Assembly (NCBI GenBank): GCA_013822425.1
Contig: PNKL01000003.1
Span: 62,001-126,000, forward strand
Reading direction: 5' to 3'
Length of the DNA: 64,000 bases
From: Gemmatimonas sp.
Lineage (GTDB): Bacteria > Gemmatimonadota > Gemmatimonadetes > Gemmatimonadales > Gemmatimonadaceae
Each line of letters starts with the position of its first letter. The first letter of the stretch is position 1. Below are positions 7,719 to 21,453 of the stretch, in pieces. Position numbers and translations under genes: made by a program. Under the pieces are notes generated by a model. The model was not told the origin of the DNA. It did not search any database and saw nothing but the letters and a program-made list of their open reading frames with translations.

Positions 7719-8491
7719 CAGGAGGTAAGATACAGGGCGGCGGGATAAGTGACCTGCTCGAGGCAGAGACCGCCGGCGGGGGCCGGCGGCGACACCTCGT
7801 CATTGGCATCGGCGACGAGCAGCGCGGCGAACTCCTCGCGCCGGCGCTGGTGCGAGGCCACCTCGATCATCGTGCCGACGAGGAACCGCACCATGTGGTG
7901 CAGGAATCGGTTGGCCTCGACATCGAAGACCAGACCGCCCGGCACCACGCGCCAGCGCGCGAAACGAATCTCGCAGCGATGGTCGTCATCGTCCGGCGCC
8001 GTGCCGCGCACCGCAAACCCGAAGAACTGATGCTCCCCGAGCAGCGCGGCCGCGCACCACGCCAGCGCGTCGCCATCCAGGGATTTCCCGACCGGCCATT
8101 CCCAGCGTCGCCGGAATGGCGAGCGGGCGGCCTCGTCGAGCCCCACGGCATAGCTGTACCGCCGGCTGGTCGCGCTGTACCGCGCGTGAAACTCCGGTTG
8201 CATCGCATGCACCGCCGCGACGAAGACGTCGTCAGGAAGCTGTGCGTTGAGCACGTGCCTCAGGCGATCCGGCGTCCAGTGCGACGGCACTTCCACGCTG
8301 GCCGCCTGGCCGCGGGCATGCACACCCGCATCCGTTCGACCGGCGCCCGTGACCCGGACCGGCCCGCCGCACAGGCGCGCCAGAGCCGATTCGAGGGTAC
8401 CCTGCACGGTTCGCGTCTCCGGCTGCACCTGCCAGCCGGAAAAGTCGGTGCCGTCATAGTGCAACACGAGCTGAAACACGCGTCCCGCCAT
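7718..8491 (-). CDS. truA: tRNA pseudouridine(38-40) synthase TruA
   Basis: The enzyme isomerises uridines 38-40 in the tRNA anticodon arm. The 257-residue protein is read from the ATG at 8491, giving MAGRVFQLVLHYDGTDFSGW. An upstream in-frame start would add 16 residues without family support. The catalytic aspartate is Asp54 in GAGRTDAGVHARGQ, and FLHHMVRFLVGTM near the C-terminus is also conserved. It is the first gene of the minus-strand run; its stop shares one base with the next start (TGATG). Confidence 0.95.
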   Translation of the reverse strand: MAGRVFQLVLHYDGTDFSGWQVQPETRTVQGTLESALARLCGGPVRVTGAGRTDAGVHARGQAASVEVPSHWTPDRLRHVLNAQLPDDVFVAAVHAMQPEFHARYSATSRRYSYAVGLDEAARSPFRRRWEWPVGKSLDGDALAWCAAALLGEHQFFGFAVRGTAPDDDDHRCEIRFARWRVVPGGLVFDVEANRFLHHMVRFLVGTMIEVASHQRRREEFAALLVADANDEVSPPAPAGGLCLEQVTYPAALYLTS

Positions 8492-8653
8492 TGCAGGGAA
8501 AATAGCCCTTGGCGCGTGCCCGATCAAGCAAAGGCGCATCGCCCAACCGATTGACAGGGCATGACGTAGGCCTCACGTTCCCGCAGGTGGCCGCGTCGGC
8601 CGCCCGGGGCGCCGTGCTGCGCGCTCCGCACGCCCTTCTTGCCTCTCCGCTGG
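8492..8653. promoter_or_regulatory. Divergent intergenic region truA / GAF gene
   Basis: This 162-bp gap separates truA and its nine-gene operon (leftward) from the GAF-trpD unit (rightward). It should hold at least two promoters. I see no pair of hexamers close enough to the sigma-70 consensus to name, and no strong dyad. Confidence 0.4.
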
Positions 8654-9985
8654 ATGCCTGACTCCACCCTCGCTTCGCTGGCCCACGCGCTCGCCGCCGC
8701 TCCGCGCCTGGACGCGGCGTTCGTTGCGTTGGCCGAGGGGATGGCCGAAGTCGACCGGGCCGTGGTGGTGGCCTACCTCCCGTTCGATGCGCGAGACGGG
8801 AAGCTCATCGAGTGCGTGACGTGGGACCGCGGCACCGTGGCCCGGACGCCGATCGAAGTCGCGCTGCGCCAGTTCTCGACCGACGTGGTGCAGCGGGTGC
8901 ACCGCGGGGGGGCGTTCGTCGATGTCGGGGAGGAGTCCGACACGTTCGCGCGCATGCTCCAGCTGCCGCCGCTCGGTGAACCCGGCGATCTCGCGCTGCG
9001 CGGCATCCGTTTTGACGGAGAGCTGGCGGCCGTGCTCGCGTTGCATGAACCCCGTCGCATCTTCGGCGCGCGGGTCACCCAGCAGGCGAGCGCGCTCGCC
9101 GCGCTGTTCGACCTGGCGCACGACCGGTTCGCGGAACGGGAGGCGCGGGTGGAGGCGGCGCGCACCCTCGAGGACGTCACGCAGCGGGTGCACGGCGAGT
9201 ATCTCACGCGCCTGGCGGAACTGGAGCAGCAGCTGACACAGGCGCGCGGCGCGGCCGGCGCGGCCGACGCGGCGCGCGCCGGGCAGACGGTGCAGCAGGC
9301 CCGTGAATTGGCGCGCGGCGCAGAGGACGCGCGGCGCGCCGCCTCGCGGCTTCGTGCGCTTGAGCATCAGGTGACCGCGGCGGTCGGCCAGCTCGAGCAG
9401 GCGCACATCGAGCTGCATCGTCGCAGCGAAGGACTGCGCCAGCGCACGCGCACCATCTACCTGCTGGATCGCGTTCTCGACCTCGCGGCCCACCACGTGG
9501 ACCCCAAGCGCCTTGCGGAAGGGCTGCTCGCGCTCGTCGGCGACGACATGCAGGCGATGCGCTGCTCGCTCTTCCTGCGCGCGCCGGAGCCCGAGACGCT
9601 GTATCTCGCGGCCTCGCGCGGCCTCGCGCCGCACGTGCACGAAGGGGCGCGCATCACCGTGGGGCAGGGCGTCGCCGGACGCGTCGCCGCCAGCCGCCAA
9701 CCGCTGCTGGTGGTGGACGCGTCCGACGCGCAGGCCCAGCCGCTCCTGCGCGATGAGTACCTCACGACGGGCTCCTTCATTTCGTTTCCGCTGGTGATCC
9801 GCGACGAATTGATCGGCGTGGTGAACCTCACGAATCGTGCGCAGCGGGGGCTCTTTGTGGAGGAGGATGTGGAGCGCGTGCGCCTGCTCGGTCTCGTCAT
9901 CTCCCTGATCGCACGTGAGGCCCGCCTGCCGGAACAGTTGCTCGACCGGATCCCGGAACAGTTGCTCGACCGGATCAATGAATAG
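8654..9985 (+). CDS. GAF-domain protein with central coiled coil
   Basis: A 443-residue cytosolic protein with no signal peptide. An N-terminal globular region (about 1-165) is followed by an Ala/Arg/Glu/Gln-rich coiled coil (about 165-275) and a C-terminal GAF domain (about 285-430), which includes LYLAASRGLAPHVHEG, GQGVAGRVAASRQPLLV and FPLVIRDELIGVVNLTN. No output domain is fused, so it may sense a small molecule or act as a scaffold. The start at 8654 follows the family-like PDSTLAS; a more upstream ATG at 8639 is possible. The C-terminus carries an exact 8-residue duplication, PEQLLDRI twice. It overlaps trpD by 8 bp. Confidence 0.8.
   Translation: MPDSTLASLAHALAAAPRLDAAFVALAEGMAEVDRAVVVAYLPFDARDGKLIECVTWDRGTVARTPIEVALRQFSTDVVQRVHRGGAFVDVGEESDTFARMLQLPPLGEPGDLALRGIRFDGELAAVLALHEPRRIFGARVTQQASALAALFDLAHDRFAEREARVEAARTLEDVTQRVHGEYLTRLAELEQQLTQARGAAGAADAARAGQTVQQARELARGAEDARRAASRLRALEHQVTAAVGQLEQAHIELHRRSEGLRQRTRTIYLLDRVLDLAAHHVDPKRLAEGLLALVGDDMQAMRCSLFLRAPEPETLYLAASRGLAPHVHEGARITVGQGVAGRVAASRQPLLVVDASDAQAQPLLRDEYLTTGSFISFPLVIRDELIGVVNLTNRAQRGLFVEEDVERVRLLGLVISLIAREARLPEQLLDRIPEQLLDRINE
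9929..9976 (+). repeat. 24-bp tandem duplication at the 3' end of the GAF gene
   Basis: Two perfect copies of a 24-bp unit (9929-9952 and 9953-9976) encode PEQLLDRI twice in frame. They end two codons before the GAF stop and one base before the trpD start codon. Confidence 0.95.
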
Positions 9986-11021
9986 CGGTCCGCTGCACGC
10001 CGCGATCCGCCGCCTCGCGGCCGGAGAACCGCTCACGCGTGACGAGGCCGCAGGTGCCTTTGGGTGCATCATGCGCGGCGAGGGCACGGAGGTGCAGGTG
10101 TCGGCCCTGCTCATGGGGCTGCGCGTCAAGGGCGAGACCCCAGAGGAACTGGCCGGCGCCGCGACGGCGCTGCGAGAAGCGATGACCGTCCTGCCCGCCG
10201 ACGCGCCTGAACAGCTCGTGGACACGTGCGGCACCGGCGGAGGGGCCGTCACCACGTTCAATATCTCCACCGCGGCCGCCCTCCTTGCCGCGGGCACCGG
10301 GGTTCGGGTCGCCAAGCACGGCAACCGGTCGTTCACCTCGCGGTCCGGAAGCGCGGACGTGCTCGAAGCGCTCGGCGTGCGCATCGACATTCCGGTCGAG
10401 CGAATGGGTGATGTGCTCAACGGGGCGGGCATTGTCTTCATGTTTGCGCCGACGATGCATCCTGCCATGCGGCACGTCGGCCCGGTGCGGCGCGAACTCG
10501 CGATTCAAACGGTGATGAACCTCGTCGGCCCGCTGGCCAATCCGGCGCGCGCCGGCCGGCAGGTCATCGGCGTGGCCGATGCCCGGCGCCTCGGTCTCCT
10601 TGGCGGCGCCCTGCAGGCGCTGGGCACGACGCACAGCCTGATTGTGCACGGAGAGCCGGGCCTCGACGAGATCTCGCCGCTCGGGAGCACCAAGGTGCTG
10701 GAGCTCGTGGACGGCGAGGCGCGGTCGTGGACCCTGGAGCCGCAGCGGCACGGGGTGCCGAGCGTGGCGGAGAGCGATCTCATCGGCGCCGAGCCCGCCG
10801 ACAACGCGCGCATCGTGGAGGAGGTGCTCGCGGGTCGCGGACGCCCCGGCGCGGTGGCGGCAGTCACGCTGAATGCGGCCGCGGCCATCTACGTGTCAGG
10901 CCTCGCCGGCGATTTCACGGCCGCGCTCGCGCTCGCTCGGGAGGCCCTGCGCGACGGAGCGGGGCGCGCGGCGCTCGAGAAATTGCGCACAGTCTCGAGC
11001 CGCGCGGCGGCCAAGGGCTGA
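9978..11021 (+). CDS. trpD: Anthranilate phosphoribosyltransferase
   Basis: This is step 2 of tryptophan synthesis, joining anthranilate and PRPP. The 347-residue protein carries the PRPP-binding glycine-rich motif DTCGTGGGAVTTFNIST, followed by KHGNRSFTSRSGSADVLEALG and the conserved NLVGPLANPA. The ATG at 9978 lies inside the end of the GAF gene, an 8-bp overlap. Neither trpE nor trpG is in the window; the other trp genes start after lexA. Confidence 0.96.
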   Translation: MNSGPLHAAIRRLAAGEPLTRDEAAGAFGCIMRGEGTEVQVSALLMGLRVKGETPEELAGAATALREAMTVLPADAPEQLVDTCGTGGGAVTTFNISTAAALLAAGTGVRVAKHGNRSFTSRSGSADVLEALGVRIDIPVERMGDVLNGAGIVFMFAPTMHPAMRHVGPVRRELAIQTVMNLVGPLANPARAGRQVIGVADARRLGLLGGALQALGTTHSLIVHGEPGLDEISPLGSTKVLELVDGEARSWTLEPQRHGVPSVAESDLIGAEPADNARIVEEVLAGRGRPGAVAAVTLNAAAAIYVSGLAGDFTAALALAREALRDGAGRAALEKLRTVSSRAAAKG

Positions 11022-11078
11022 TCGGCCGATCACCGCCTGCCGTCCGTCGTCCATCGTGCGACGAGCAACGCCCGCGGT

Positions 11079-11690
11079 TCAGAACTTCCGCATCACGCCC
11101 ACCACCACGCCTTCGATACGGATGTCGTCCGTCCGGTCGAAGTACATCGGCGCCAGCGCCTCGTTGGCGGGCTGCAGCCGCACGCGGCCGTCGCGTTCAC
11201 GATAGTACCGCTTGACCGTGGCGGTGGCGCCGTTGAGCATCGCGATGACCATCTCGCCGTTGTCGGCCGTCTGGCGCTGATTGACCACCACCAGGTCGCC
11301 ATCGGTGATGTGGTCTTCGATCATGGAGTTGCCGCGCACGCGCAGCACGTAGTGGGCACCGCCGCGACGCACGAAGTCGTCCGGCACGGCCACCGTCTCG
11401 CCGCTCGTCGAGTGCTCGATTGCGGTGCCGGCCGCCACCGCACCGAGCAGGGGGAGCTCAATGGACTGGCGGAACGCCTCCGAGGGCAGGATCTCGATGG
11501 CGCGGCTTTCATTGTAGCTGCGCTTGATGTAGCCCTTGCGCTCGAGATTGGTGAGGTGTTCGTGCACCGTCGCCAGCGAGTTATAGTTGAAGTGCGCGGC
11601 GATCTCCTCGAAGCTCGGGGCGTACCCGTGGTCGCCCTGGTACCCTTGCAGGTAGTCGAGAATCTGGCGCTGGCGCTTGGTGAGCGGCAT
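11079..11690 (-). CDS. lexA: SOS repressor LexA
   Basis: A 203-residue repressor and autoprotease that controls DNA-damage genes. The N-terminal winged helix (MPLTKRQRQILDYL... NSLATVHEHLTNLERKGYI) binds operators. The self-cleavage bond is Ala87-Gly88 in AVAAGTA, with catalytic Ser122 in RGNSMIEDHITDGD and Lys160 in ATVKRYY. All residues needed for RecA-stimulated cleavage are present. It is transcribed away from trpC across an 88-bp gap that holds a dyad, a possible autoregulatory operator. Confidence 0.96.
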   Translation of the reverse strand: MPLTKRQRQILDYLQGYQGDHGYAPSFEEIAAHFNYNSLATVHEHLTNLERKGYIKRSYNESRAIEILPSEAFRQSIELPLLGAVAAGTAIEHSTSGETVAVPDDFVRRGGAHYVLRVRGNSMIEDHITDGDLVVVNQRQTADNGEMVIAMLNGATATVKRYYRERDGRVRLQPANEALAPMYFDRTDDIRIEGVVVGVMRKF

Positions 11691-11735
11691 GGCGACGGTA
11701 CCGGATGTAGTGTGGCAGACTCTGGATGATGCGTC

Positions 11736-11756
11736 GGTTTGACGAGCGAACAAACC
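11736..11756. promoter_or_regulatory. Candidate operator dyad between lexA and trpC
   Basis: GGTTTG and CAAACC form a perfect 6-bp inverted repeat separated by 9 bp, 46 bp upstream of the lexA start. LexA usually represses its own gene, so this is a candidate SOS box. It does not match the E. coli (CTGT-N8-ACAG) or Bacillus (GAAC-N4-GTTC) consensus, so the assignment is inference. Confidence 0.3.
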
Positions 11757-11778
11757 CCGAAGTAACGGTAGCCGAACA

Positions 11779-12603
11779 TTGACCGAAGTGCAACAGGGCG
11801 TCTGGACGCCACCCACGGGGCCGCTGGGCCGACTGACCGAGAAAGCAGTTACGCGCGCCGAGCGGTCGCGGGCCGACGTGCGCGCCATGGAACGACGGGT
11901 AGCCGAGGTGACGGCCGTGCCTTCGTTCAGCGGAGCACTGCAACGGCCGGACGTGGCGGTCATTGCCGAAGTGAAGCGCCGATCGCCAAGCAAGGGCGTC
12001 CTCGATGAATCCCTCGATGCCGGCGTGCGTGCCGCCGAGTATGCCGTCGGAGGCGCTGCAGCGCTTTCGATCCTCACCGAACCGACGGAGTTTGGCGGTT
12101 CGCTTGATGATCTCGCTGCGGCTCGGCGGGCCGTGGGAATTCCGCTGTTGCGCAAGGACTTCATCGTGGACGAGGTCCAGTTGCTCGAGGCCCGGCTCGC
12201 GGGTGCGAGCGCGGTGTTGCTGATTGCGCGAGCGCTTCCTGCCGACCGGTTCTTCGCGCTGGCCGCCGCCGCCCGCTCCATTGGCCTCGACGTCCTGCTC
12301 GAAGTTCGCGACGAAGCCGAACTCGAGCGTGCACTCGGCGTGCCGGACGGCATCGTCGGCGTGAACAACCGGGACCTCGAGACGCTTGTCATCGACGACC
12401 GCGTGTCGGAGCGGCTGCTGCGCCTCGTGCCGCCCGGTCGCACGGCGGTGTACGAGAGCGGCGTCAACGATGCGGAGGGCGTGCGCCGCGCCGCGACGCT
12501 CGGGGCTGACGCCGTGCTCGTGGGTTCTGCGCTCTCTGTCGTGTCGTCGCCCGCCGAGGCGGTGCGCCGTCTGACGGGGGTCCCCCGGAGCGCGCGTGGC
12601 TGA
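11779..12603 (+). CDS. trpC: Indole-3-glycerol phosphate synthase
   Basis: This 274-residue TIM barrel closes the indole ring in tryptophan synthesis. Family residues are intact: Glu/Lys in AEVKRRSPSKG, the catalytic lysine in LLRKDFIVDE, the glutamate in VLLEVRDEAE, the asparagine in VGVNNRDL and the glutamate-serine in VYESGV. The start is a TTG at 11779 (MTEVQQGVW). It overlaps trpF by 8 bp. Confidence 0.95.
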   Translation: MTEVQQGVWTPPTGPLGRLTEKAVTRAERSRADVRAMERRVAEVTAVPSFSGALQRPDVAVIAEVKRRSPSKGVLDESLDAGVRAAEYAVGGAAALSILTEPTEFGGSLDDLAAARRAVGIPLLRKDFIVDEVQLLEARLAGASAVLLIARALPADRFFALAAAARSIGLDVLLEVRDEAELERALGVPDGIVGVNNRDLETLVIDDRVSERLLRLVPPGRTAVYESGVNDAEGVRRAATLGADAVLVGSALSVVSSPAEAVRRLTGVPRSARG

Positions 12604-13246
12604 GGTGAAGTTCTGCGGACTCACGCGGGCCGTTGATGCGCAGGCGGGCGGCGTGCTGGGGGCGGCCTACCTCGGCGTGGTCTTCGCCGACGGCCCGCGC
12701 CGGCTGGATGCGGCGGCGGCTCGCGTCGTGCTGGATGGTGCGCGCGGACACGGAACCGCACGCCGCGTGGGGGTGTTCGGTGCACAGCCGGTGGAGGAGA
12801 TCGCGGCCGATGCCGCCGCGGCCAGCCTCGACATCGTGCAGCTTCACGGCACGTCGGACGCCACGCTTGTGGATGCGCTGCGGCAGCGGTTTGACGGTGC
12901 GATCTGGCGTGTGGTGCGCCTGCCGGATCTTGCGGTTGTCGCGGCGCTGCGCGGGGCCGAGGATGGCGTGGATGCCGTCCTCATTGACGCGCACGTGCCC
13001 GGGGCGCTTGGCGGGACCGGGACCGCGGTGGACTGGGAACGACTCGCGTCGGCGCTCGACAGCGGCGGGCGTCCGCGGCGGCTCGTGCTCGCGGGCGGAC
13101 TTCGGCCCGAGAACGTGGAACGCGCGATCGGACTGGTCGCGCCGGATGTCGTGGATGTATCCTCAGGGGTCGAATCGACGACGGGAATCAAGGATCATGC
13201 ACTGATGCGCGCCTTCGCCGAGTCGGCGGCGCGCGGAGGGCGGTGA
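12596..13246 (+). CDS. trpF: Phosphoribosylanthranilate isomerase
   Basis: A 216-residue TIM barrel that performs the Amadori rearrangement between the TrpD and TrpC steps. It starts with GTG ([15 protein letters not shown]). The catalytic cysteine of K-F-C-G-L-T and the C-terminal phosphate-binding loops ([11 protein letters not shown] and [14 protein letters not shown]) are present. The start overlaps trpC by 8 bp and the stop is one base before trpB. Confidence 0.95.
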
Positions 13247-13247
13247 G

Positions 13248-14438
13248 ATGCAGACGCTGGGCGTGACGGACGGGCGATTCGGGGCCTTCGGCGGGCGTTA
13301 CGTGCCGGAGACGCTCGTGCCGGCGCTGGACGAACTCGCAGTGGCCCTCGAGGCCGCGCTGGCCGACCCGGCCTTCCACGCCGACCTCGACGGACTGCTG
13401 CAGCACTACGTGGGGCGGCCCTCACCACTCAGCGACGCGCCGCGTTTCTCGGCCCTCGTCGGCGCCCCGGTCTGGTTGAAGCGCGAAGACCTGAACCACA
13501 CGGGCGCACACAAGATCAACAATGCGCTCGCGCAGGCGCTGCTCGCGTGCCGCATGGGCAAGCGCCGCATCATCGCCGAGACCGGAGCCGGCCAGCACGG
13601 GGTCGCCACTGCCACGGTGTGCGCGCGCCTCGGCCTTGAGTGCGTGGTGTACATGGGCGAGGAGGACATGCGGCGGCAGCAGCTCAACGTGTACCGGATG
13701 CGCTTGATGGGCGCGACCGTCGTGCCCGTGACGGCCGGCACGCGCACGCTGAAGGACGCCACCACCGAGGCCATTCGTGACTGGGTGACCACCTGCCCGA
13801 CAAGCCACTACATCATCGGCTCCGTCGTGGGGCCGGCCCCGTATCCCCGCATGGTGCGCGATTTCCAGGCCATCATCGGCCGCGAGGCGCGCCGCCAGAT
13901 GCTCGAACGTGCGGGACGCCTGCCGCGCACGGTCGTCGCCTGCGTCGGCGGCGGCTCAAACGCGATGGGCATCTTCCATCCGTTCGTGGACGACGCGGAG
14001 GTCGAGCTGGTGGGAGTGGAGGCGGCCGGGCACGGTCTCGACAGCGGGGCGCACTCGGCGAGCCTGACGCGCGGCACGCCCGGCGTGCTGCATGGCGCAC
14101 TGAGCTACCTGTTGCAGGATGCGCACGGGCAGGTGCATCCGGCGCATTCCATTTCGGCCGGGCTCGATTATCCGGGCGTGGGCCCGGAGCATTCGCACCT
14201 GAAGGACTCTGGCCGCGCGACGTACGTGTCGGTGACCGACGACGAGGCGCTCGAGGGCTTCGCGCTCCTTGGCCGGCTTGAGGGGATCATCCCGGCGCTC
14301 GAGACGGCGCACGCCGTCTCGTGGATTGCGTCGCACCGGGGACGTTGGACCGCCGACCAGCCGGTATTGCTCTGCGTGAGCGGCCGGGGCGACAAGGATG
14401 TCGCGCAGGTCAGCGAGCTCGCCCACGCGCCAGGGTGA
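13248..14438 (+). CDS. trpB: Tryptophan synthase beta subunit
   Basis: A 396-residue PLP enzyme that condenses indole and serine. The PLP lysine is in [14 protein letters not shown] and the phosphate loop in [12 protein letters not shown]. The N-terminal [15 protein letters not shown] and the catalytic glutamate region AETGAGQHG are typical of TrpB1, the form that pairs with TrpA. The partner gene trpA is 3.3 kb downstream, separated by the HEAT and HD-GYP genes, although the two subunits form one complex and are normally adjacent. Confidence 0.97.
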
Positions 14439-14440
14439 CC

Positions 14441-14469
14441 GTGACGTTTGCTCGCGATGCCCGTATGTT
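14441..14469 (+). promoter_or_regulatory. Candidate promoter before the HEAT gene
   Basis: GTGACG (14441-14446) and TATGTT (14464-14469) are separated by 17 bp, matching the sigma-70 hexamers at 4 of 6 positions each. The -10 ends 6 bases before the ATG at 14476, so a transcript from here would be nearly leaderless. It could let the HEAT - HD-GYP - trpA segment be expressed apart from trpCFB. Confidence 0.35.
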
Positions 14470-14475
14470 GTGTAG

Positions 14476-16242
14476 ATGACCGCGACCACGGCCACCGTCC
14501 CGGATCACGGACCCGAGGATATCGAGCCGCCTTTTTCGCCGCAGCTCGTGGCGGAGATGCTGCGCCAGCTCGACAAGACCATTCGGGCACACCTGCTGTA
14601 CCTGAACAACCACAACAATCCCAGCTATGTCCGGTCGCTGGAACAGGCGCGCGCGGTCTTCACGCCGCTGTGGGAGGAGACCGAGTCGGTGCGGCTGACC
14701 GTATCGGAGACCGCACTGGAGTGGTTCGGGCACAAGGTCCTCGAGGAGCCGACGAAGGCCGGTGACTCGCTGCCGTGGACGCTGTTCAAGGACGGCCTGC
14801 GCGAACTGACCCTGAAGAAGGGCTTCGAGGAAAAGGAACTGGTCGATTTCCTCAACATCATTCCGAAGCTGCGCCACGCGCTTCCCAGCTCGGATGACCT
14901 GCTGACGCTGCTGTGGGAGAACGAGTTCACGACCCTGCAGTACCGCTACGTGGATGTTGCTGATGTATCGGCTCCGATCGAGGCATCGCCCGAACCGGGA
15001 CGCTGGCCCAGGCGGAGCGGCGGGGACGCCGACGATCCCCGCGAGGCGGTGCAGGAGGCCAGGAACGAGGCGGCCTCCGGGACGTCCAGCGGCTCCTCCG
15101 AGTCGCAGGGGCGGCCGGGCATTGTCAGCATGGAGGACTTCGACACCACGCTCTACTTCCTGGACGAGAAGGAGGTGGAATACCTTCGCCAGGAAACGGA
15201 GCGCGAGTACGCCACGGACCTGCGGCGCGCGGCGCTCGATTCGCTGCTCGACCTCTTCGAGTTCCAGGTGGACCCGCTCGTGCGCGCCGAGGTGCTGTCG
15301 GACATCGAGGCGCTGATGCTGCACCTGCTCTCCGCCGGTCAGTTCGCGGCGGTGGCGTATCTCCTGCGCGAAGCCGCCGCCACGCTCGAACGCGCGCGGG
15401 ACGTGCAGCCGGAGACGCAAGAGCGCCTGGGCTCGCTGACGGTCCGCCTGAGCGAACCAGCGGCGTTGTCCCAGCTGCTCGAGGCGATGGATGCGGCCCC
15501 CATGCTGCCGTCGTCCGCCGACCTGAACGACCTGTTCGGCCAGCTTCGGCCGACGGCGCTCTCCACGATCTTCGCCTGGCTGCCGCGCGCCCAGAATGTC
15601 GGCCTGCGCCCGCTGCTCGAGTCGGCCGCAACGCGCATCGCCGAGTCGGCGACCGGCGAGCTCGTGAAGCTCATCTCCGATCCCGCGCGCGATGTGGCGC
15701 TCGAGGCGATCCGGCGCTGCGGCGCCATGCGGACGGCCGCCGGCGTGCCGGCGATGGCGAAGGTGCTCGAACAGGGCGACCGGGAGTTGCGCCTTGCGGC
15801 CCTCTCGTCGCTGGGCGACATCGGCTCCCCGGGGGCCCTGCAGGCGGTGGAACGCGCCCTGGGTGACGCCGATCGCGACCTGCGCGTCCAGGCGGCCCGC
15901 ACGCTGACGTCGCGGCAATACCGCCCGGCGCTGCAGCGCGCGGAGGCCGCCGTGAAGGGCAAGGAACTGCGCGACGCCGACCGGACGGAGCGCTTGACCT
16001 TCTTCGAACTCTATGGCTCGCTCTGCGGCGATGGCGGCGTGGCCTACCTCGACGGCCTGCTGAACGCCAAGGGCGGCCTGTTCGCGCGCAAGGAAGACCC
16101 CGAACTGCGCGCCTGCGCTGCGGTGGCCCTCGGCCGCATCGGCACGGCGTCGGCGCGCGAGGCGCTCCAGCGCGCCGATGGCGACAAGGACGTCGTGGTG
16201 CGCAACGCCGTGACCCGCGCCCTTCGCGGAGGGGCCCAGTGA
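14476..16242 (+). CDS. HEAT-repeat protein
   Basis: A 588-residue cytosolic protein of unknown function. The N-terminal domain (about 25-165) is helical and contains TIRAHLLYLNN, which resembles the N-terminus of the HD-GYP protein next door (TIRNLRLYP). A low-complexity Ser/Gly/Glu linker (about 175-225) follows. The C-terminal half (about 370-588) is built of HEAT-type helical repeats, for example ELRLAALSSLGDIGSPGALQAVERAL and RACAAVALGRIGTASAREALQRA (quoted in part as 20-residue pieces: ELRLAALSSLGDIGSPGALQ, RACAAVALGRIGTASAREAL). Such repeats bind proteins. The stop overlaps the HD-GYP start as GTGA, so the two are made together. Its position between trpB and trpA is unusual. Confidence 0.8.
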   Translation: MTATTATVPDHGPEDIEPPFSPQLVAEMLRQLDKTIRAHLLYLNNHNNPSYVRSLEQARAVFTPLWEETESVRLTVSETALEWFGHKVLEEPTKAGDSLPWTLFKDGLRELTLKKGFEEKELVDFLNIIPKLRHALPSSDDLLTLLWENEFTTLQYRYVDVADVSAPIEASPEPGRWPRRSGGDADDPREAVQEARNEAASGTSSGSSESQGRPGIVSMEDFDTTLYFLDEKEVEYLRQETEREYATDLRRAALDSLLDLFEFQVDPLVRAEVLSDIEALMLHLLSAGQFAAVAYLLREAAATLERARDVQPETQERLGSLTVRLSEPAALSQLLEAMDAAPMLPSSADLNDLFGQLRPTALSTIFAWLPRAQNVGLRPLLESAATRIAESATGELVKLISDPARDVALEAIRRCGAMRTAAGVPAMAKVLEQGDRELRLAALSSLGDIGSPGALQAVERALGDADRDLRVQAARTLTSRQYRPALQRAEAAVKGKELRDADRTERLTFFELYGSLCGDGGVAYLDGLLNAKGGLFARKEDPELRACAAVALGRIGTASAREALQRADGDKDVVVRNAVTRALRGGAQ

Positions 16243-17732
16243 CCTCCCCGTCGCGTCCGTCCGCCGCGATGCGCGGCTCCGTCGCCATGCCGGCAACAGG
16301 GGAGATCGCTGACGAGGCGTATGTGCGCGTGGCCAGCCGCGCCTTCATTATGGCGTTCTACGGGACGATCCGGAATCTCCGGCTGTATCCGCTCGAGAAC
16401 GCCGTCGTCCAGCAGTCGCTGCAAGACCTGTCGCAGATCACGAACGACCTGTTGACGCGCGAGAAGGAGTGTGAGTTCCGCATTGCGGGCGAGTTCATCT
16501 TCGTGAACAGCACGCGCCTGCGCCTCGACCTCGAGAACTACTCGAGCTTCAGCGCGCTGCTGAACCAGTTCCGGCAGAACGGCATCGGCACGCTGCGCAT
16601 GCTGCGCGCCCCCGCCATGCGCGACTGGACGGTACTCCTCGGCTACCTGATGAATCCGCAGGGGACCGACGCCGTGGAGCGGTTCGAGGCGCTCCTGCAG
16701 CGGCTGTCGGACACGAGCATCACGGCGTTCGAGCTCGCCCCGCTGGTCGAGTCGGACGATGATCACGGCGGCGAACGGCTGGAGTCCAAGGAGAAGGCCA
16801 AGCGCACCTACGCGAAGTCGGTCTCCGCGACAAAGGAAGTCATCAACTCTGTTCGGATGGGACAGAGCGCGAACATCAAGAAGATCAAGCGCGTGGTGCA
16901 GGGCATCGTGGACCAGATCCTCGCCGACGAGACGTCGCTCGTCGGGCTCACCACTATTCGCGACTACGACGACTACACGTTCACGCACTCGGTGAACGTC
17001 TGCATCTTCTCTATTGCCCTCGGCCGCCGGCTCGCGCTCACCCGCCTGCAGCTGTACGACCTGGGCATGGCGGCGCTCCTCCACGACATCGGCAAGGCGC
17101 GCGTCCCGGCCGAGATCATCAACAAGTCCGACGTCCTGACCGACGAGGAATGGCGCGCCGTCGCCTCGCACCCGTGGTTGGGCGTGCTGGCCCTCTTCTC
17201 GGTGAAGGACCAGCGGGAGTTCCCGTACCGCTCCATGCTCGTCGCGTTCCAGCACCACATGAAGCGCGACCTGACGGGCTATCCGCGCAGCCTCCGCACC
17301 AAGGACATGATGTTCTACTCCAAGATCGTGGCGGTGGCAGACGGCTTCGATGCGGCCACGTCGCGCCGGTCGTACCAGACGACGCCCATGGCGCCCTCGG
17401 CGGTGCTGCAGGAAATGCGCGACAACGCGCGCCGCGGCATGGACCCGGTGATCGTGAAGGCCTTCATCAACCTGCTCGGCATCTATCCGGTGGGGACCTT
17501 CCTGGTGCTCGACACGTTTGAACTCGCCATCGTGCACGCCGCGAACCCCGATCCCGAGATGCTGTCGCGTCCACTCGTGCGCATCGTGAGCGACGACATG
17601 GGCAACGTGCAGTACCCGGGCACGGTGGTGGACCTGACCGAGCGCACGGAGGCCGGCGACTATCGCCGCACCATCATCAAGACCGCCGATCCCGACAAGT
17701 ACGGCATTCGCGTCGGCGACTACTTCGTCTGA
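16239..17732 (+). CDS. HD-GYP domain phosphohydrolase
   Basis: A 497-residue protein starting with GTG. The N-terminal sensor-like domain (about 25-190) shares the TIRxxxLY motif with the HEAT protein. The HD-GYP domain (about 215-420) has the metal-binding HD in ALLHDIGKARVPAEI, a further histidine in ASHPWLG, the histidine pair in FQHHMKRDLTGYP and the GYP motif itself. HD-GYP proteins hydrolyse cyclic dinucleotides, mostly c-di-GMP to GMP. No receiver or membrane domain is attached, so the HEAT partner may supply the input. It ends 7 bp before trpA. Confidence 0.88.
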   Translation: MTSPSRPSAAMRGSVAMPATGEIADEAYVRVASRAFIMAFYGTIRNLRLYPLENAVVQQSLQDLSQITNDLLTREKECEFRIAGEFIFVNSTRLRLDLENYSSFSALLNQFRQNGIGTLRMLRAPAMRDWTVLLGYLMNPQGTDAVERFEALLQRLSDTSITAFELAPLVESDDDHGGERLESKEKAKRTYAKSVSATKEVINSVRMGQSANIKKIKRVVQGIVDQILADETSLVGLTTIRDYDDYTFTHSVNVCIFSIALGRRLALTRLQLYDLGMAALLHDIGKARVPAEIINKSDVLTDEEWRAVASHPWLGVLALFSVKDQREFPYRSMLVAFQHHMKRDLTGYPRSLRTKDMMFYSKIVAVADGFDAATSRRSYQTTPMAPSAVLQEMRDNARRGMDPVIVKAFINLLGIYPVGTFLVLDTFELAIVHAANPDPEMLSRPLVRIVSDDMGNVQYPGTVVDLTERTEAGDYRRTIIKTADPDKYGIRVGDYFV

Positions 17733-17739
17733 GACGCTC

Positions 17740-18513
17740 GTGCTGACTGCTCGCTTTGACGCGCTCCGCGCCCGGGGACGCCGCGCCCTCGTCTGCTACG
17801 CCACCGCCGGCCATCCCGATCCCGAGCGGAGCATCGCCCTCTGGCAGGGGCTCGAGGCCGCCGGCGCCGACGTGCTGGAGGTCGGCGTGCCGTTCTCCGA
17901 CCCCATGGCGGACGGGCCGGTGATCCAGGCCAGTTCGCAGACGGCGTTGTCGCACGGCGTCACGCTGGAGGCCGCGCTCGACCTCGTCAGCCGCGCCCGG
18001 CTCGGTATTCCCGTCGTGCTGTTCAGCTACCTCAATCCGCTGATCGCCGCCGGCCCCGGTGTACTCCGGCGCGCCGCCGAGGCCGGGGTGCACGGTGTGC
18101 TTCTCACCGATCTGCCGGTCGGCAGCGACCCGGCGCGCGAAGCATGGCTGGGCGCAGGGCCGCTTGCGTTCGTGCGCCTCGTGGCGCCGACCACGCCGCC
18201 CCAGCGCATGGCGGAGATTGCGCGGCACGGCCGCGGTTTCGTGTACCTCATCTCGCGGCTCGGCGTGACCGGCGTGAGTGCGCAATTGCCGACGGACCTA
18301 CCGGAGACCATCGCGTCGCTGCGCGCGGTGTGCGCCCTGCCGATCTGCGTCGGATTCGGCATCTCGCGTCCGGAGCAGGCGCGATTGCTGGGGGCGCACG
18401 CCGACGGCATCGTCGTCGGCAGCGCCATCGTGCGCGCCGCCGGCGAATCGGTGGACGCCGCCGTGGCACTCGCGCGCGAGCTCCGGGGCGCGCTCGACGA
18501 CCGCGCGTCATGA
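17740..18513 (+). CDS. trpA: Tryptophan synthase alpha subunit
   Basis: This 257-residue TIM barrel cleaves indole-3-glycerol phosphate and passes indole to TrpB. It starts with GTG. The catalytic glutamate and aspartate lie in ADVLEVGVPFSDPMADGPVIQ (split as ADVLEVGVPFSDP and MADGPVIQ); the phosphate-binding loop is FGISRPEQ and the last strand HADGIVVGSAIV. It overlaps the YqeK-like gene by ATGA. Confidence 0.95.
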   Translation: MLTARFDALRARGRRALVCYATAGHPDPERSIALWQGLEAAGADVLEVGVPFSDPMADGPVIQASSQTALSHGVTLEAALDLVSRARLGIPVVLFSYLNPLIAAGPGVLRRAAEAGVHGVLLTDLPVGSDPAREAWLGAGPLAFVRLVAPTTPPQRMAEIARHGRGFVYLISRLGVTGVSAQLPTDLPETIASLRAVCALPICVGFGISRPEQARLLGAHADGIVVGSAIVRAAGESVDAAVALARELRGALDDRAS

Positions 18514-19046
18514 CGCCGCCCGTCCTGCCCGAGTGGGCGGTGGTCAGCGAGAGGCGACGGGGGCACATCGCACGCGTGACGGCGCTGCTCGACGACTGGG
18601 CAGCGCGCATGCGACTCGACGCCGCCGAGGCGCAGGCGTGGCACGACGCGGGCCGCTGGCACGACGCGCTGCGCGACGCGACGCCCGCGGCGCTGCGCGG
18701 CATCATCACCGGGTCCGACCTCCCCGACGGCATCCTGCACGGACCGGCCGCAGCCGCGATGCTCGAGCGGGAGGGCGAGTCGCGTCCGAGCGTGCTGGAG
18801 GCGGTGCGCTGGCACACCGTAGGGCACCCCGACTGGGATCGCACCGGTCGCGCGCTGTTCATGGCCGACTTTCTCGAACCCGGACGCGGCTTCATGCACG
18901 CCGACCGTGCCTTCCTCGCCGCGCAGCTGCCGCACAACTTCGACGGCGTCTTCCGGCAGGCCGTCCGCATGCGGCTCGAGTGGACCCTGCGCGAAGGCAA
19001 CCGGATCTTCGAGGGGACGGTCACGCTGTGGAATTCCGTCCGCTGA
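18510..19046 (+). CDS. YqeK-like HD-domain hydrolase
   Basis: A 178-residue HD-superfamily protein. Metal ligands appear as His-Asp in RWHDAL, a further histidine in GILHGPAAA, His-Thr in RWHTVGHPDWD and the final aspartate in FMADFLEPGR. This order matches YqeK, which hydrolyses diadenosine tetraphosphate symmetrically and usually lies beside nadD, a LytR_C gene and rsfS. Here only the LytR_C neighbour is present. The ATG overlaps the trpA stop. Function by family: nucleotide hydrolysis, probably Ap4A. Confidence 0.75.
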   Translation: MTPPVLPEWAVVSERRRGHIARVTALLDDWAARMRLDAAEAQAWHDAGRWHDALRDATPAALRGIITGSDLPDGILHGPAAAAMLEREGESRPSVLEAVRWHTVGHPDWDRTGRALFMADFLEPGRGFMHADRAFLAAQLPHNFDGVFRQAVRMRLEWTLREGNRIFEGTVTLWNSVR

Positions 19047-19537
19047 ACGCCCCGCCCGCGGTGGCCGCGGTGGCCGCGGCGGCGCGTCGTCGCCGGCGCC
19101 GCGTCGCCCTGATCGTCCTGCTGGCGGCGATCGCCGGCGGTGTGTTCCGCCAGCGAGGACCGCGAACCGACGCCGCGGGTGCCGGCGACGCCACAGCCGC
19201 GCCGGCCGTTCGTCCGGCGCGCGTCGTGCCGGACTCGGTGCGCATCAAGGTCGAGGTGATCAACGCGACGTCCACGCGCGGACTCGGCCGCCTCGCCACG
19301 GCCTGGCTGCGCGACCAGGGGTTTGACGTGGTTGGGACCGGCACCGCACCGTCAGCGGATCGGCGCGACAGCACGCTGGTGCTCGATCGCTCGGGGCATC
19401 CCGACTGGGCGAGGCTCGCCGCGGCGGCGCTGGGCGGCGCGCGCGTCGAGGCGCGCGCCGACTCGCTACGCTACGTCGACCTCACCGTGCTGATCGGCCG
19501 GTCGTGGCGGCCGCCGCCGCAGTCGCTCTACCCGTAG
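19028..19537 (+). CDS. LytR C-terminal-domain protein, membrane-anchored
   Basis: About 169 residues from a GTG at 19028, the only start that keeps the N-terminal segment; it overlaps the YqeK-like gene by 19 bp. A basic stretch (ARRRRRRVAL) and one hydrophobic helix (IVLLAAIAGGVF) anchor a periplasmic LytR_C domain, seen in VRIKVEVINATSTRGLGR and the following ATAWLRDQGFDVVG. LytR_C domains occur in envelope proteins of unclear function. The 3' end overlaps rlmN tail to tail by 72 bp. Confidence 0.75.
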   Translation: MEFRPLNAPPAVAAVAAAARRRRRRVALIVLLAAIAGGVFRQRGPRTDAAGAGDATAAPAVRPARVVPDSVRIKVEVINATSTRGLGRLATAWLRDQGFDVVGTGTAPSADRRDSTLVLDRSGHPDWARLAAAALGGARVEARADSLRYVDLTVLIGRSWRPPPQSLYP

Positions 19538-20557
19538 CTGCCCGCACGCCGCAGCGATGTCCGTGCCGCGGCTCTTTCGCACCGCGACCTCCACCCCGTG
19601 CCGCGCGAGCGCCGCCGCGAAGCGCGTGATTCCCTCAGGCGAGGTCGGCGTGTACGCGCCGGCTCCGCCGGGGTGCAGCGGAATGAGGTTCACGAACGCC
19701 CCGCAGCGCCTGGCGAGACGTGCCAACTCGGTGGCGTGTCCGGGCTGGTCGTTGACGCCACCCAGCATGACGTACTCGAATGTCACGCGCCGGCTGAACG
19801 AGGCCGCCGCGTCGATGACTTTCTCGAGCGGGAACTTGATGTTCACCGGCATCAGCATGCGGCGCAACTCGTCCGTCGGCGCGTGCACGGAGATAGCCAG
19901 GCGGAACTGCTCGGGACGCTGGGCCATGGCCTCGATGCCCGGCAGCACGCCGACGGTGGAGACCGTGATGTGGCGGGCACCGATGCCGCACCCCTTCGGG
20001 TCGTTGAGGATCGTCAGGGCGATGTTCACCGCCTTCCAGTTCATCATCGGCTCGCCCATGCCCATGAACACGATGTTCGTCGGCTTCACGGGCTCGGGCA
20101 GGAGCGCCAGTTCGCGCACCTGGCCGGCGATCTCCGACGGCACCAGGTTGCGGTAGAATCCCATCAACCCGGTGGCGCAGAAGGAGCACTGCAGGGCGCA
20201 TCCGGCCTGCGACGAGATGCAGAGCGTCACGCGATCGCCGTCGGGAATCGCCACCGTCTCGATGGTCTGCCCGTCGTGCAGGCGAAAGAGGAACTTGCGC
20301 GTGCCGTCCTTGGACCGCTGCTCGTCGGCGAGTGCGAGCCGCGGCATGCAGAACGCCTGCGCCAGCGCCGCGCGGAACGGCAGCGGCAGGTCGCTCATCG
20401 CCTGAAAGTCCGGGGCTGGCGCCGCCCAGAGGTGGCGTACCGCCTGGCTGCCGCGATAGGCGCCGACGCCACGAGCCGTCGCGAAGTCGCGCAGGCGCTG
20501 CTCGGCCTCTGCCGGCGTCAGGTCGAGCACGTTCACGGCCGTACTGCGCTCGTTCAC
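19466..20557 (-). CDS. rlmN: 23S rRNA (adenine(2503)-C(2))-methyltransferase RlmN
   Basis: A 363-residue radical SAM enzyme that methylates A2503 of 23S rRNA and A37 of some tRNAs. The [4Fe-4S] motif is CALQCSFC and the SAM site includes FMGMGEPMMN. The catalytic cysteine that forms the methylated-protein intermediate is in the C-terminal IAAACGQLR. About 20 extra residues follow, encoded antisense to the LytR_C gene; this tail is basic and proline-containing. The start overlaps the upstream membrane-protein gene by ATGA. Confidence 0.95.
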   Translation of the reverse strand: MNERSTAVNVLDLTPAEAEQRLRDFATARGVGAYRGSQAVRHLWAAPAPDFQAMSDLPLPFRAALAQAFCMPRLALADEQRSKDGTRKFLFRLHDGQTIETVAIPDGDRVTLCISSQAGCALQCSFCATGLMGFYRNLVPSEIAGQVRELALLPEPVKPTNIVFMGMGEPMMNWKAVNIALTILNDPKGCGIGARHITVSTVGVLPGIEAMAQRPEQFRLAISVHAPTDELRRMLMPVNIKFPLEKVIDAAASFSRRVTFEYVMLGGVNDQPGHATELARLARRCGAFVNLIPLHPGGAGAYTPTSPEGITRFAAALARHGVEVAVRKSRGTDIAAACGQLRVERLRRRPPRPADQHGEVDVA

Positions 20558-21453
20558 TTGACGACGGAACTGAGCGTGAACTGATAGGTGGCCGAGAGGT
20601 TGCCGCCACCCTCCTCGCGGGCCACGCCGATCACGTAGCCGCGATGGTGAAAGGCGACGCCCAGGCGGCCGCGCCAGTTCGCATGGCCGAACGCCTCGGT
20701 TCGCGCGCCGCCGATCCGTCCCTCGAGTCGCGCCCAGCGCGCGGTGGCGTACGCAAAGGCCTCGCGTGCGAGGCCGTCGACTGCCGTGTAGCTGGCGCCG
20801 ATGCGGCTCGTGCGCAGCGAGTCGCTGCCTGCGAGCCGGGCGTCGATGGCGGTGAGCATCTGGACCCGCTCGCGCCCCTGGGCGAAGGCGCTCGCGAGGA
20901 ATGTGGATGCGGCGAGCCGGACGTCGCGCGAACCCAGCCCGCGTGAGATCACGCCGACGTCCATCGAAAGCGCATGGCGCGAGATGTTGTCCGCCCGGCC
21001 ACTGCGGACGCGCACGGCGGCGCCGAGCGTCACCGGTCCCACGGCCCGTGCCGCCATCAGCGAGACAAGGGTGGTCGCGTATGGAATCTCGTCGCCGATG
21101 GACTGCGGGTCGGAGTCGGTGCGGAGCAGGTCATTCACCGAGGCATGCGCCAGTCCGATCGCGACCGTGGTGCCGTCGCGCCAGCGCGCGGCCGCGGTCG
21201 CAACCTGCGCCGTGACGGCCACGTCCACCGGGGCGTTCATCGTTCCCACGGCGAGCCGCAGCCGGCTTCCCTCGGGGACCAGGACGCTCGCCGGATTCCA
21301 CAGTCCGAACCCCGCGGTCGTGCCCAGCGCCGGCGCTTCGGTCGTGAGACCCAGCGGAAAGGTGAGCAGGTCTCGCCCGGGCACCGGCTGTGCCGCCAGC
21401 GCGTCCGGCAGGAGGATGCTGCCGAGCAACAGGAGAAGGGCGGATCGGTGCAT
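20554..21453 (-). CDS. Putative outer-membrane beta-barrel protein
   Basis: A 299-residue exported protein. The signal peptide ends near LAAQPVPGR. The mature part is rich in alternating hydrophobic and polar residues with short turns (RLRLAVGTM, VTLGAAVRVRSG, RLGVAFHHRGYVIGVA) and ends in a strand, ATYQFTLSSV. This fits an outer-membrane barrel of the PorV/UPF0164 kind. I cannot name a specific family. It is co-transcribed with rlmN. Confidence 0.55.
   Translation of the reverse strand: MHRSALLLLLGSILLPDALAAQPVPGRDLLTFPLGLTTEAPALGTTAGFGLWNPASVLVPEGSRLRLAVGTMNAPVDVAVTAQVATAAARWRDGTTVAIGLAHASVNDLLRTDSDPQSIGDEIPYATTLVSLMAARAVGPVTLGAAVRVRSGRADNISRHALSMDVGVISRGLGSRDVRLAASTFLASAFAQGRERVQMLTAIDARLAGSDSLRTSRIGASYTAVDGLAREAFAYATARWARLEGRIGGARTEAFGHANWRGRLGVAFHHRGYVIGVAREEGGGNLSATYQFTLSSVVK

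Follow-up and report, generated by a model that had tools for sequence, protein, structure and literature searches.

The adjacency of trpB and trpA is a textbook case of gene neighbourhood read as shared function; what, then, is the role of a HEAT-repeat gene and an HD-GYP gene that stand between them in Gemmatimonas sp.? The locus lies in a stretch of 64,000 nucleotides (the window; contig PNKL01000003.1 of assembly GCA_013822425.1, positions 62,001 to 126,000 of the forward strand) from a 3.57-Mb draft genome that is 99% complete, and its open reading frames and profile matches give the plus-strand order trpC-trpF-trpB-[HEAT]-[HD-GYP]-trpA. The placement of the two genes is a feature of the class Gemmatimonadetes, most of which shares it, and is neither specific to this genome nor due to chance. 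Probably, the pair is an ancestral, class-wide cyclic-dinucleotide signalling unit within a lexA-divergent superoperon that also holds trpC-F-B and trpA: since it persists where tryptophan genes are lost, it would be a signalling module that has its place in the operon and not a tryptophan regulator. The features at the centre of the argument are the following:

14476..16242, plus strand: gene of the HEAT-repeat protein, an open frame of 588 amino acids (PF13646, HEAT_2, E 1e-17)
14527..14961, plus strand: N-terminal domain (N-domain) of the HEAT protein (aligned with its HD-GYP counterpart by HHalign; matching secondary-structure order)
16239..17732, plus strand: gene of the HD-GYP protein, an open frame of 497 amino acids (PF13487, HD_5, E 3e-20)
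16302..16754, plus strand: N-domain of the HD-GYP protein (profile comparisons)
13248..14438, plus strand: trpB (TIGR00263, E 7e-178)
17740..18513, plus strand: trpA, GTG start (PF00290, E 1e-74; TIGR00262, E 2e-65)

The HEAT gene starts 37 base pairs (bp) after the end of trpB at 14438 and overlaps the HD-GYP gene in a GTGA at 16239-16242, with GGAGGGG upstream, and the HD-GYP stop is followed after 7 bp by the GTG of trpA (17740). The two inserted genes, their coupling and the 7-bp gap had been described in an earlier reading of the letters (the sequence-only reading), which proved exact on these points.

To see how general this arrangement is, one set of 249 genomes from the phylum was searched for both HD-GYP and trpA. 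For 100 genomes both genes are among the matches listed, and in all 100 trpA follows 2-100 bp after the end of the HD-GYP gene and shares its strand; diverged trp clusters are under-represented in this figure because the listed matches were those with the best E-values. In loci read directly, seven families of the class (f1-f6 and f9) show trpB-HEAT-HDGYP-trpA or at least the HDGYP-trpA part of it, and the HEAT protein is kept class-wide. The conserved frame runs from a divergent lexA through trpC, in part of the loci trpF, trpB, HEAT, HD-GYP and trpA to yqeK, a LytR_C-like gene and a convergent rlmN; relatives can carry a GAF-MCP gene and/or folB, folK, panB and panC between trpA and the yqeK-like gene, all of which the window lacks. 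The sequence-only reading had staked its proposal on the pair recurring in the trp loci of relatives, and there it is found throughout the class.

Nevertheless, pair and trp genes come apart in both directions. At 18 loci (L052, L058, L060, L066, L071, L075, L084, L121-L126, L129-L132 and L134) the pair lies between lexA and yqeK without trpB and trpA, which are gone or elsewhere. In L121 the flanking trp genes have disappeared on both sides, leaving HEAT-HDGYP-yqeK, and trpB and trpA were not found in this genome, which is listed as 100% complete. Eleven such genomes hold the trp genes elsewhere as a contiguous cluster in which trpB adjoins trpA and TrpB identity is 55-64%. The relatives L108-L120 have trp elsewhere with a similarly diverged TrpB (55-64%), most with the pair still at the old locus, and their trp cluster looks like a replacement from another lineage. 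Conversely, the pair is absent and trpB adjoins trpA at 16 loci, and two further loci retain parts of it in the slot between these two trp genes: a decaying piece with HD-GYP residues 330-497 only (L095:5868-6359) and a decaying in-frame remnant that joins the N-terminal part of HEAT to a C-terminal piece of HD-GYP (L101:5253-6311). The presence of the pair is not associated with that of trpA (155/74 versus 12/8, p=0.47; of the 21 genomes without trpA, 20 could be named from the listing).

These observations bear on the proposal of the sequence-only reading that the pair is linked to tryptophan supply, either by sensing or adjusting it or by coupling cyclic dimeric guanosine monophosphate (c-di-GMP) to tryptophan status. 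The strict slot between trpB and trpA wherever trpA is at the locus, the 7-bp coupling to trpA and the spread over seven families are what such a tie would predict, but the pair remains where trpB and trpA have disappeared or moved, has been lost from trp operons that are intact and is independent of trpA, so that the co-occurrence with trp genes expected of a regulator or accessory of the pathway is not seen. Paralogous pairs also stand away from trp (L062-L065, L067-L069), and no Rfam leader or riboswitch was found in window positions 8000-20600. Losses in both directions and the lack of association with trpA therefore refute any obligatory link with tryptophan synthesis, while a mild advantage of co-expression would agree with them, and a role tied to tryptophan is considered quite improbable. 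That the HEAT protein helps to assemble the TrpA-TrpB complex or scaffolds it, as its gene position might suggest, is highly improbable: the same losses and retentions speak against this, and the HEAT N-domain recurs in the HD-GYP protein and in one GGDEF protein, not in Trp enzymes. The least probable explanation considered is a neutral or selfish insertion (a 'moron') without a function of its own that is carried along by co-transcription, a fate for which there is a possible precedent between trpB and trpA (PMC2395257) and which would be in line with the repeated clean losses and the two remnants; a pair of this kind would hardly be kept in seven families with invariant catalytic residues, recur jointly elsewhere and outlive its host operon.

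If not to tryptophan, to what are the two proteins connected? They carry a homologous N-terminal domain that is absent from Pfam. HHalign of HEAT residues 15-165 against HD-GYP residues 22-170 gave E 3.7e-10 (probability 96.7%, 106 collinear columns), with 8 of 8 control comparisons run alongside empty, and refined alignments of N-domain against N-domain gave E 1.2e-10 (97%, 110 columns). Profiles were needed, as BLASTP of the two N-termini against each other gave no match. Hidden Markov models cross-detect in both directions: in the fetched loci the HD-GYP N-domain profile marks 36 of 93 HEAT frames and the HEAT N-domain profile 66 of 97 HD-GYP frames, and against the whole genome of one relative the former finds HEAT proteins at E 9e-8 and 5e-6. 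Furthermore, AlphaFold2 models of both proteins show the identical order alpha-alpha-beta-beta-beta-alpha-beta-alpha-alpha-beta. No Pfam family covers residues 20-170 of the window proteins, with DUF3391 touching residues 182-215 only, and comparison with PDB sequence profiles gave weak partial matches only. The profile comparison proposed in the sequence-only reading thus bears out the shared domain, and the motifs it had quoted (TIRAHLLYLNN and TIRNLRLYP) align with each other; its description of the HD-GYP protein as lacking an input domain of its own needs correcting, given the N-domain in both proteins and a GAF-MCP gene that is often the next neighbour. The N-domain may well be present in other phyla as well. 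Among the matches listed from a tblastn search of plasmids, alignments begin at residue 167, that is, without the N-domain; a single scan of genome contigs returned close relatives and HD-domain matches only; one Armatimonadota genome gave no N-domain match, and when this genome and one of Clostridia were searched with the full length, the matches were confined to HD domains.

The HD-GYP protein consists of the N-domain (residues 22-170), the HD-GYP domain (about 210-410) and a C-terminal beta domain (about 420-497), and is a probable c-di-GMP-degrading enzyme, as judged from its residues. HD_5 scores 72.9 bits against a Pfam cut-off of 27.2 and is matched in 63 of 63 aligned members, and the AlphaFold2 model has a mean confidence score (pLDDT) of 86. 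Across 74 sequences H250, H282, D283, H311, H339, H340 and D371 are conserved and G347, Y348 and P349 stand at 97% or more, all ten being scored as invariant except Y348, which is nearly so; K286, the last residue of the HDxGK motif (H282-D283-I284-G285-K286), is invariant, and D244 nearly so. In a positional alignment made by the author to the motifs and roles given for PmGH (PMC4159591), D244 and K286 correspond to D183 and K225, whose alanine mutants lose activity, and seven of the eight metal-ligand positions are present. In the trinuclear PmGH-like subgroup the carboxylate ligand E185 lies four residues before H189, and an HD-GYP subgroup with Y or F is predicted to be binuclear (PMC4159591). 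Y246 stands at the E185 position, which sets the protein apart from the trinuclear subgroup and places it in the Y/F, probably binuclear one. Relative to the consensus HHExxDGxGYP its motif reads HHMKRDLTGYP, in which HH..D..GYP is kept and the E and first G are replaced. Among PDB profiles it matches 5z7c (E 2e-32) and 4mcw (E 2e-25), and its top Foldseek match is Bd1817 (3tm8; 343 columns aligned).

The variant motif and the inactive Bd1817 as best fold match raise the question of whether the HD-GYP protein might be a cyclic-dinucleotide receptor or adaptor and not an active enzyme, its GYP surface and N-domain assembling partners in the manner of RpfG (PMC3749722). PilT-family counts that are lower where the pair is missing, as described below, together with a prepilin-like gene beside one paralogous pair, would agree with this. 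However, the conserved metal-ligand positions and catalytic D/K pair argue for catalysis, as does the GYP tyrosine, which is missing in Bd1817, and this leaves the receptor or adaptor role rather unlikely. With these conserved residues, the signalling unit of a HEAT protein and a cyclic-dinucleotide phosphodiesterase suggested in the sequence-only reading gains support as a prediction.

The HEAT protein has its N-domain at residues of about 18-160, a disordered linker at about 163-228 and a helical, HEAT-repeat region at about 231-588. HEAT_2 scores 64.7 bits against a cut-off of 27.7, and the C-terminal half is all-helical in the AlphaFold2 model (pLDDT 84) and matches alpha-Rep in Foldseek, as befits an alpha-solenoid. 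Several observations indicate that the two genes form a unit. Their trees agree for the most part, with a mirror-tree distance correlation of r 0.85 that still includes the shared species history, and L062, L064 and L069, which are second pairs, form one and the same clade in both trees, as expected from joint duplication. Genomes counted as lacking the pair can carry divergent, translationally coupled HEAT/HD-GYP pairs (L155, L156, L159); L159:2021-12517 holds two in tandem, and in L156:486-3677 the pair is followed by a GGDEF gene, the upstream frame there being called HEAT by resemblance because it has no Pfam match. In addition, a relative encodes a 1439-amino-acid GGDEF-AAA-[N-domain]x2-HEAT protein (L158:2418-6737; N-domains at E 3e-10 and 2e-12). 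Cyclase, ATPase and scaffold are in this case placed within a single chain.

What travels with the pair may point to its partners. GGDEF proteins occur in 167 of 167 genomes with the pair, and the pair is found in none of the 38 GGDEF-less genomes, an association whose Fisher p (3e-22) overstates the case because the GGDEF-less genomes come mainly from two lineages. In the genera that contain both states, genomes without the pair have fewer GGDEF proteins in 6 of 8 (one tie, one the other way round) and lower PilT-family counts in 7 of 8 (one tie), and L062 is the paralogous pair with the adjacent prepilin-like gene. A GAF-MCP chemoreceptor-like gene lies directly after trpA, or after HD-GYP if trpA is absent, at 25 of 51 loci with the pair (L052, L058, L066, L123, L125, L130, L132 and others) and at 0 of 18 without it (p=1e-4 ignoring phylogeny, counted by the author from loci read); within family f1 alone the counts are 6 of 16 and 0 of 11 (p=0.05). 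This gene is absent in the species of the window and present in four near relatives (L037, L038, L039, L042). A flagellar link was rejected, as 17 genomes with the pair lack FliG and 9 without the pair have it.

Several points weigh against a signalling unit that is housed in the operon. Phylogeny confounds the GGDEF association, since the 38 GGDEF-less genomes, as far as listed, come for the most part from two lineages. In 6 of the 8 genera the genomes without the pair are also smaller, which makes genome reduction a confounder, and 21 GGDEF-rich genomes are without this pair, some with divergent pairs instead. The MCP gene is missing from 26 of 51 pair loci, the window among them. The HD-GYP motif is a variant one, and the best PDB sequence match of the protein is V-cGAP3, which is specific for cyclic guanosine-adenosine monophosphate (cGAMP). 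Finally, a pure lodger would not strictly require the position beside trpA that is kept without exception in the 100 genomes listed.

How the operon might be controlled can be approached from its upstream end and its borders:

11747..11787, plus strand: fourfold repeat CGAA-N7-CGAA-N11-CGAA-N7-CGAA between divergent lexA and trpC, with 11-bp spacing within each pair
11779..12603, plus strand: trpC, first gene of the operon (PF00218, E 1e-67), its true start uncertain because the annotated TTG falls within the CGAA repeat
12596..13246, plus strand: trpF (PF00697, E 2.5e-38)
18510..19046, plus strand: yqeK-like HD-hydrolase gene, named by eye (no match in a Pfam search), overlapping the trpA stop and forming the right border of the conserved frame

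The fourfold CGAA pattern had no match in 100 shuffles of the window. Of 13 genomes searched for its stricter CCGAA form, 6 contain it, each a single time and always in the lexA region; it is also present in dozens of fetched loci, including some without trp genes. The repeat looks like a candidate direct-repeat LexA operator and could put the whole operon under SOS-type control. Predictions of sigma-70 promoters and intrinsic terminators were no better than in shuffles, and no conserved trp-specific control element was seen. As a separate observation, the gene directly 5' of trpD in the window (8639-9985) encodes a GAF domain and a long stretch that resembles a coiled coil, and it is placed likewise in the f1 relatives L050, L087, L089-L091, L095 and L096.

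Taken together, the favoured signalling unit might work as follows. The N-domains would bring the HEAT and HD-GYP proteins together, possibly with GGDEF partners too, with the HEAT protein acting on the phosphodiesterase as a scaffold or regulator without enzymatic activity, the HD-GYP protein hydrolysing c-di-GMP (or 3'3'-cGAMP) and an MCP-type transducer, where present, supplying the input. Pili as output are hinted at by the PilT-family counts and the prepilin-like gene. The trp genes and the pair are probably transcribed together and, no trp-specific control element having been seen, co-expression with trp would therefore amount to growth-coupled housekeeping supply, not to a tryptophan sensor. 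A more specific version is put forward tentatively, as possible more than probable: the N-domain may be an undescribed interaction (or ligand) domain for signalling by cyclic dinucleotides that unites HD-GYP phosphodiesterases, HEAT scaffolds and GGDEF cyclases in one complex with GAF-MCP input, the module having kept its slot in the trp operon from an early point in the history of the class.

No earlier record of the pair, the shared domain or the class-wide placement was found within the limited literature and phyla covered, while HD-GYP and HEAT domains as such are already known; literature searches on HD-GYP with the trp operon, or on Gemmatimonadetes with HD-GYP, returned nothing relevant at limited coverage. 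A signalling pair splits trpB from trpA across a class, yet losses both ways show either gene set to be dispensable to the other. Furthermore, a non-Pfam domain in a probable c-di-GMP-degrading enzyme, its HEAT partner and a GGDEF fusion offers a testable lead on how such proteins meet, in a poorly studied phylum.

Among known systems, the HD-GYP phosphodiesterases PmGH, RpfG, PA4781 and V-cGAP3 share HD_5, HDxxK, GYP and the metal-ligand histidines and aspartates with the window protein, which differs by a Y at the carboxylate-ligand position and the HHMKRDLTGYP motif, by an N-domain that is neither PAS, GAF nor REC, and by a HEAT gene as constant neighbour that encodes this N-domain too. The Bdellovibrio protein Bd1817 is inactive and has no tyrosine in its GYP motif (PMC4159591); its domain placement differs (root-mean-square deviation 17 A), and it gave no sequence match with the N-domain profile. 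The C-terminal region of the HEAT protein is that of HEAT_2 and alpha-Rep-like proteins, from which its N-domain sets it apart. Non-trp genes between trpB and trpA have been reported from Flavobacterium, Burkholderia and a Sargasso Sea contig and called possible morons (PMC2395257); they share the operon slot and an unclear function, but are scattered over taxa, whereas the two coupled signalling genes described here have been retained throughout a class and persist where the trp genes are gone. RpfG of Xanthomonas contacts GGDEF, PilZ and PilT/PilU proteins (PMC3749722), and the likeness is that of an HD-GYP protein associated with both GGDEF proteins and the motors of pili: in the present case no genome with the pair is without GGDEF, genomes that have the pair show the higher PilT-family counts, and a GGDEF protein carries the N-domain as well. 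In contrast to RpfG, the present module has no receiver domain and no RpfC, has a HEAT partner instead, and would form a complex that is predicted from its genes.

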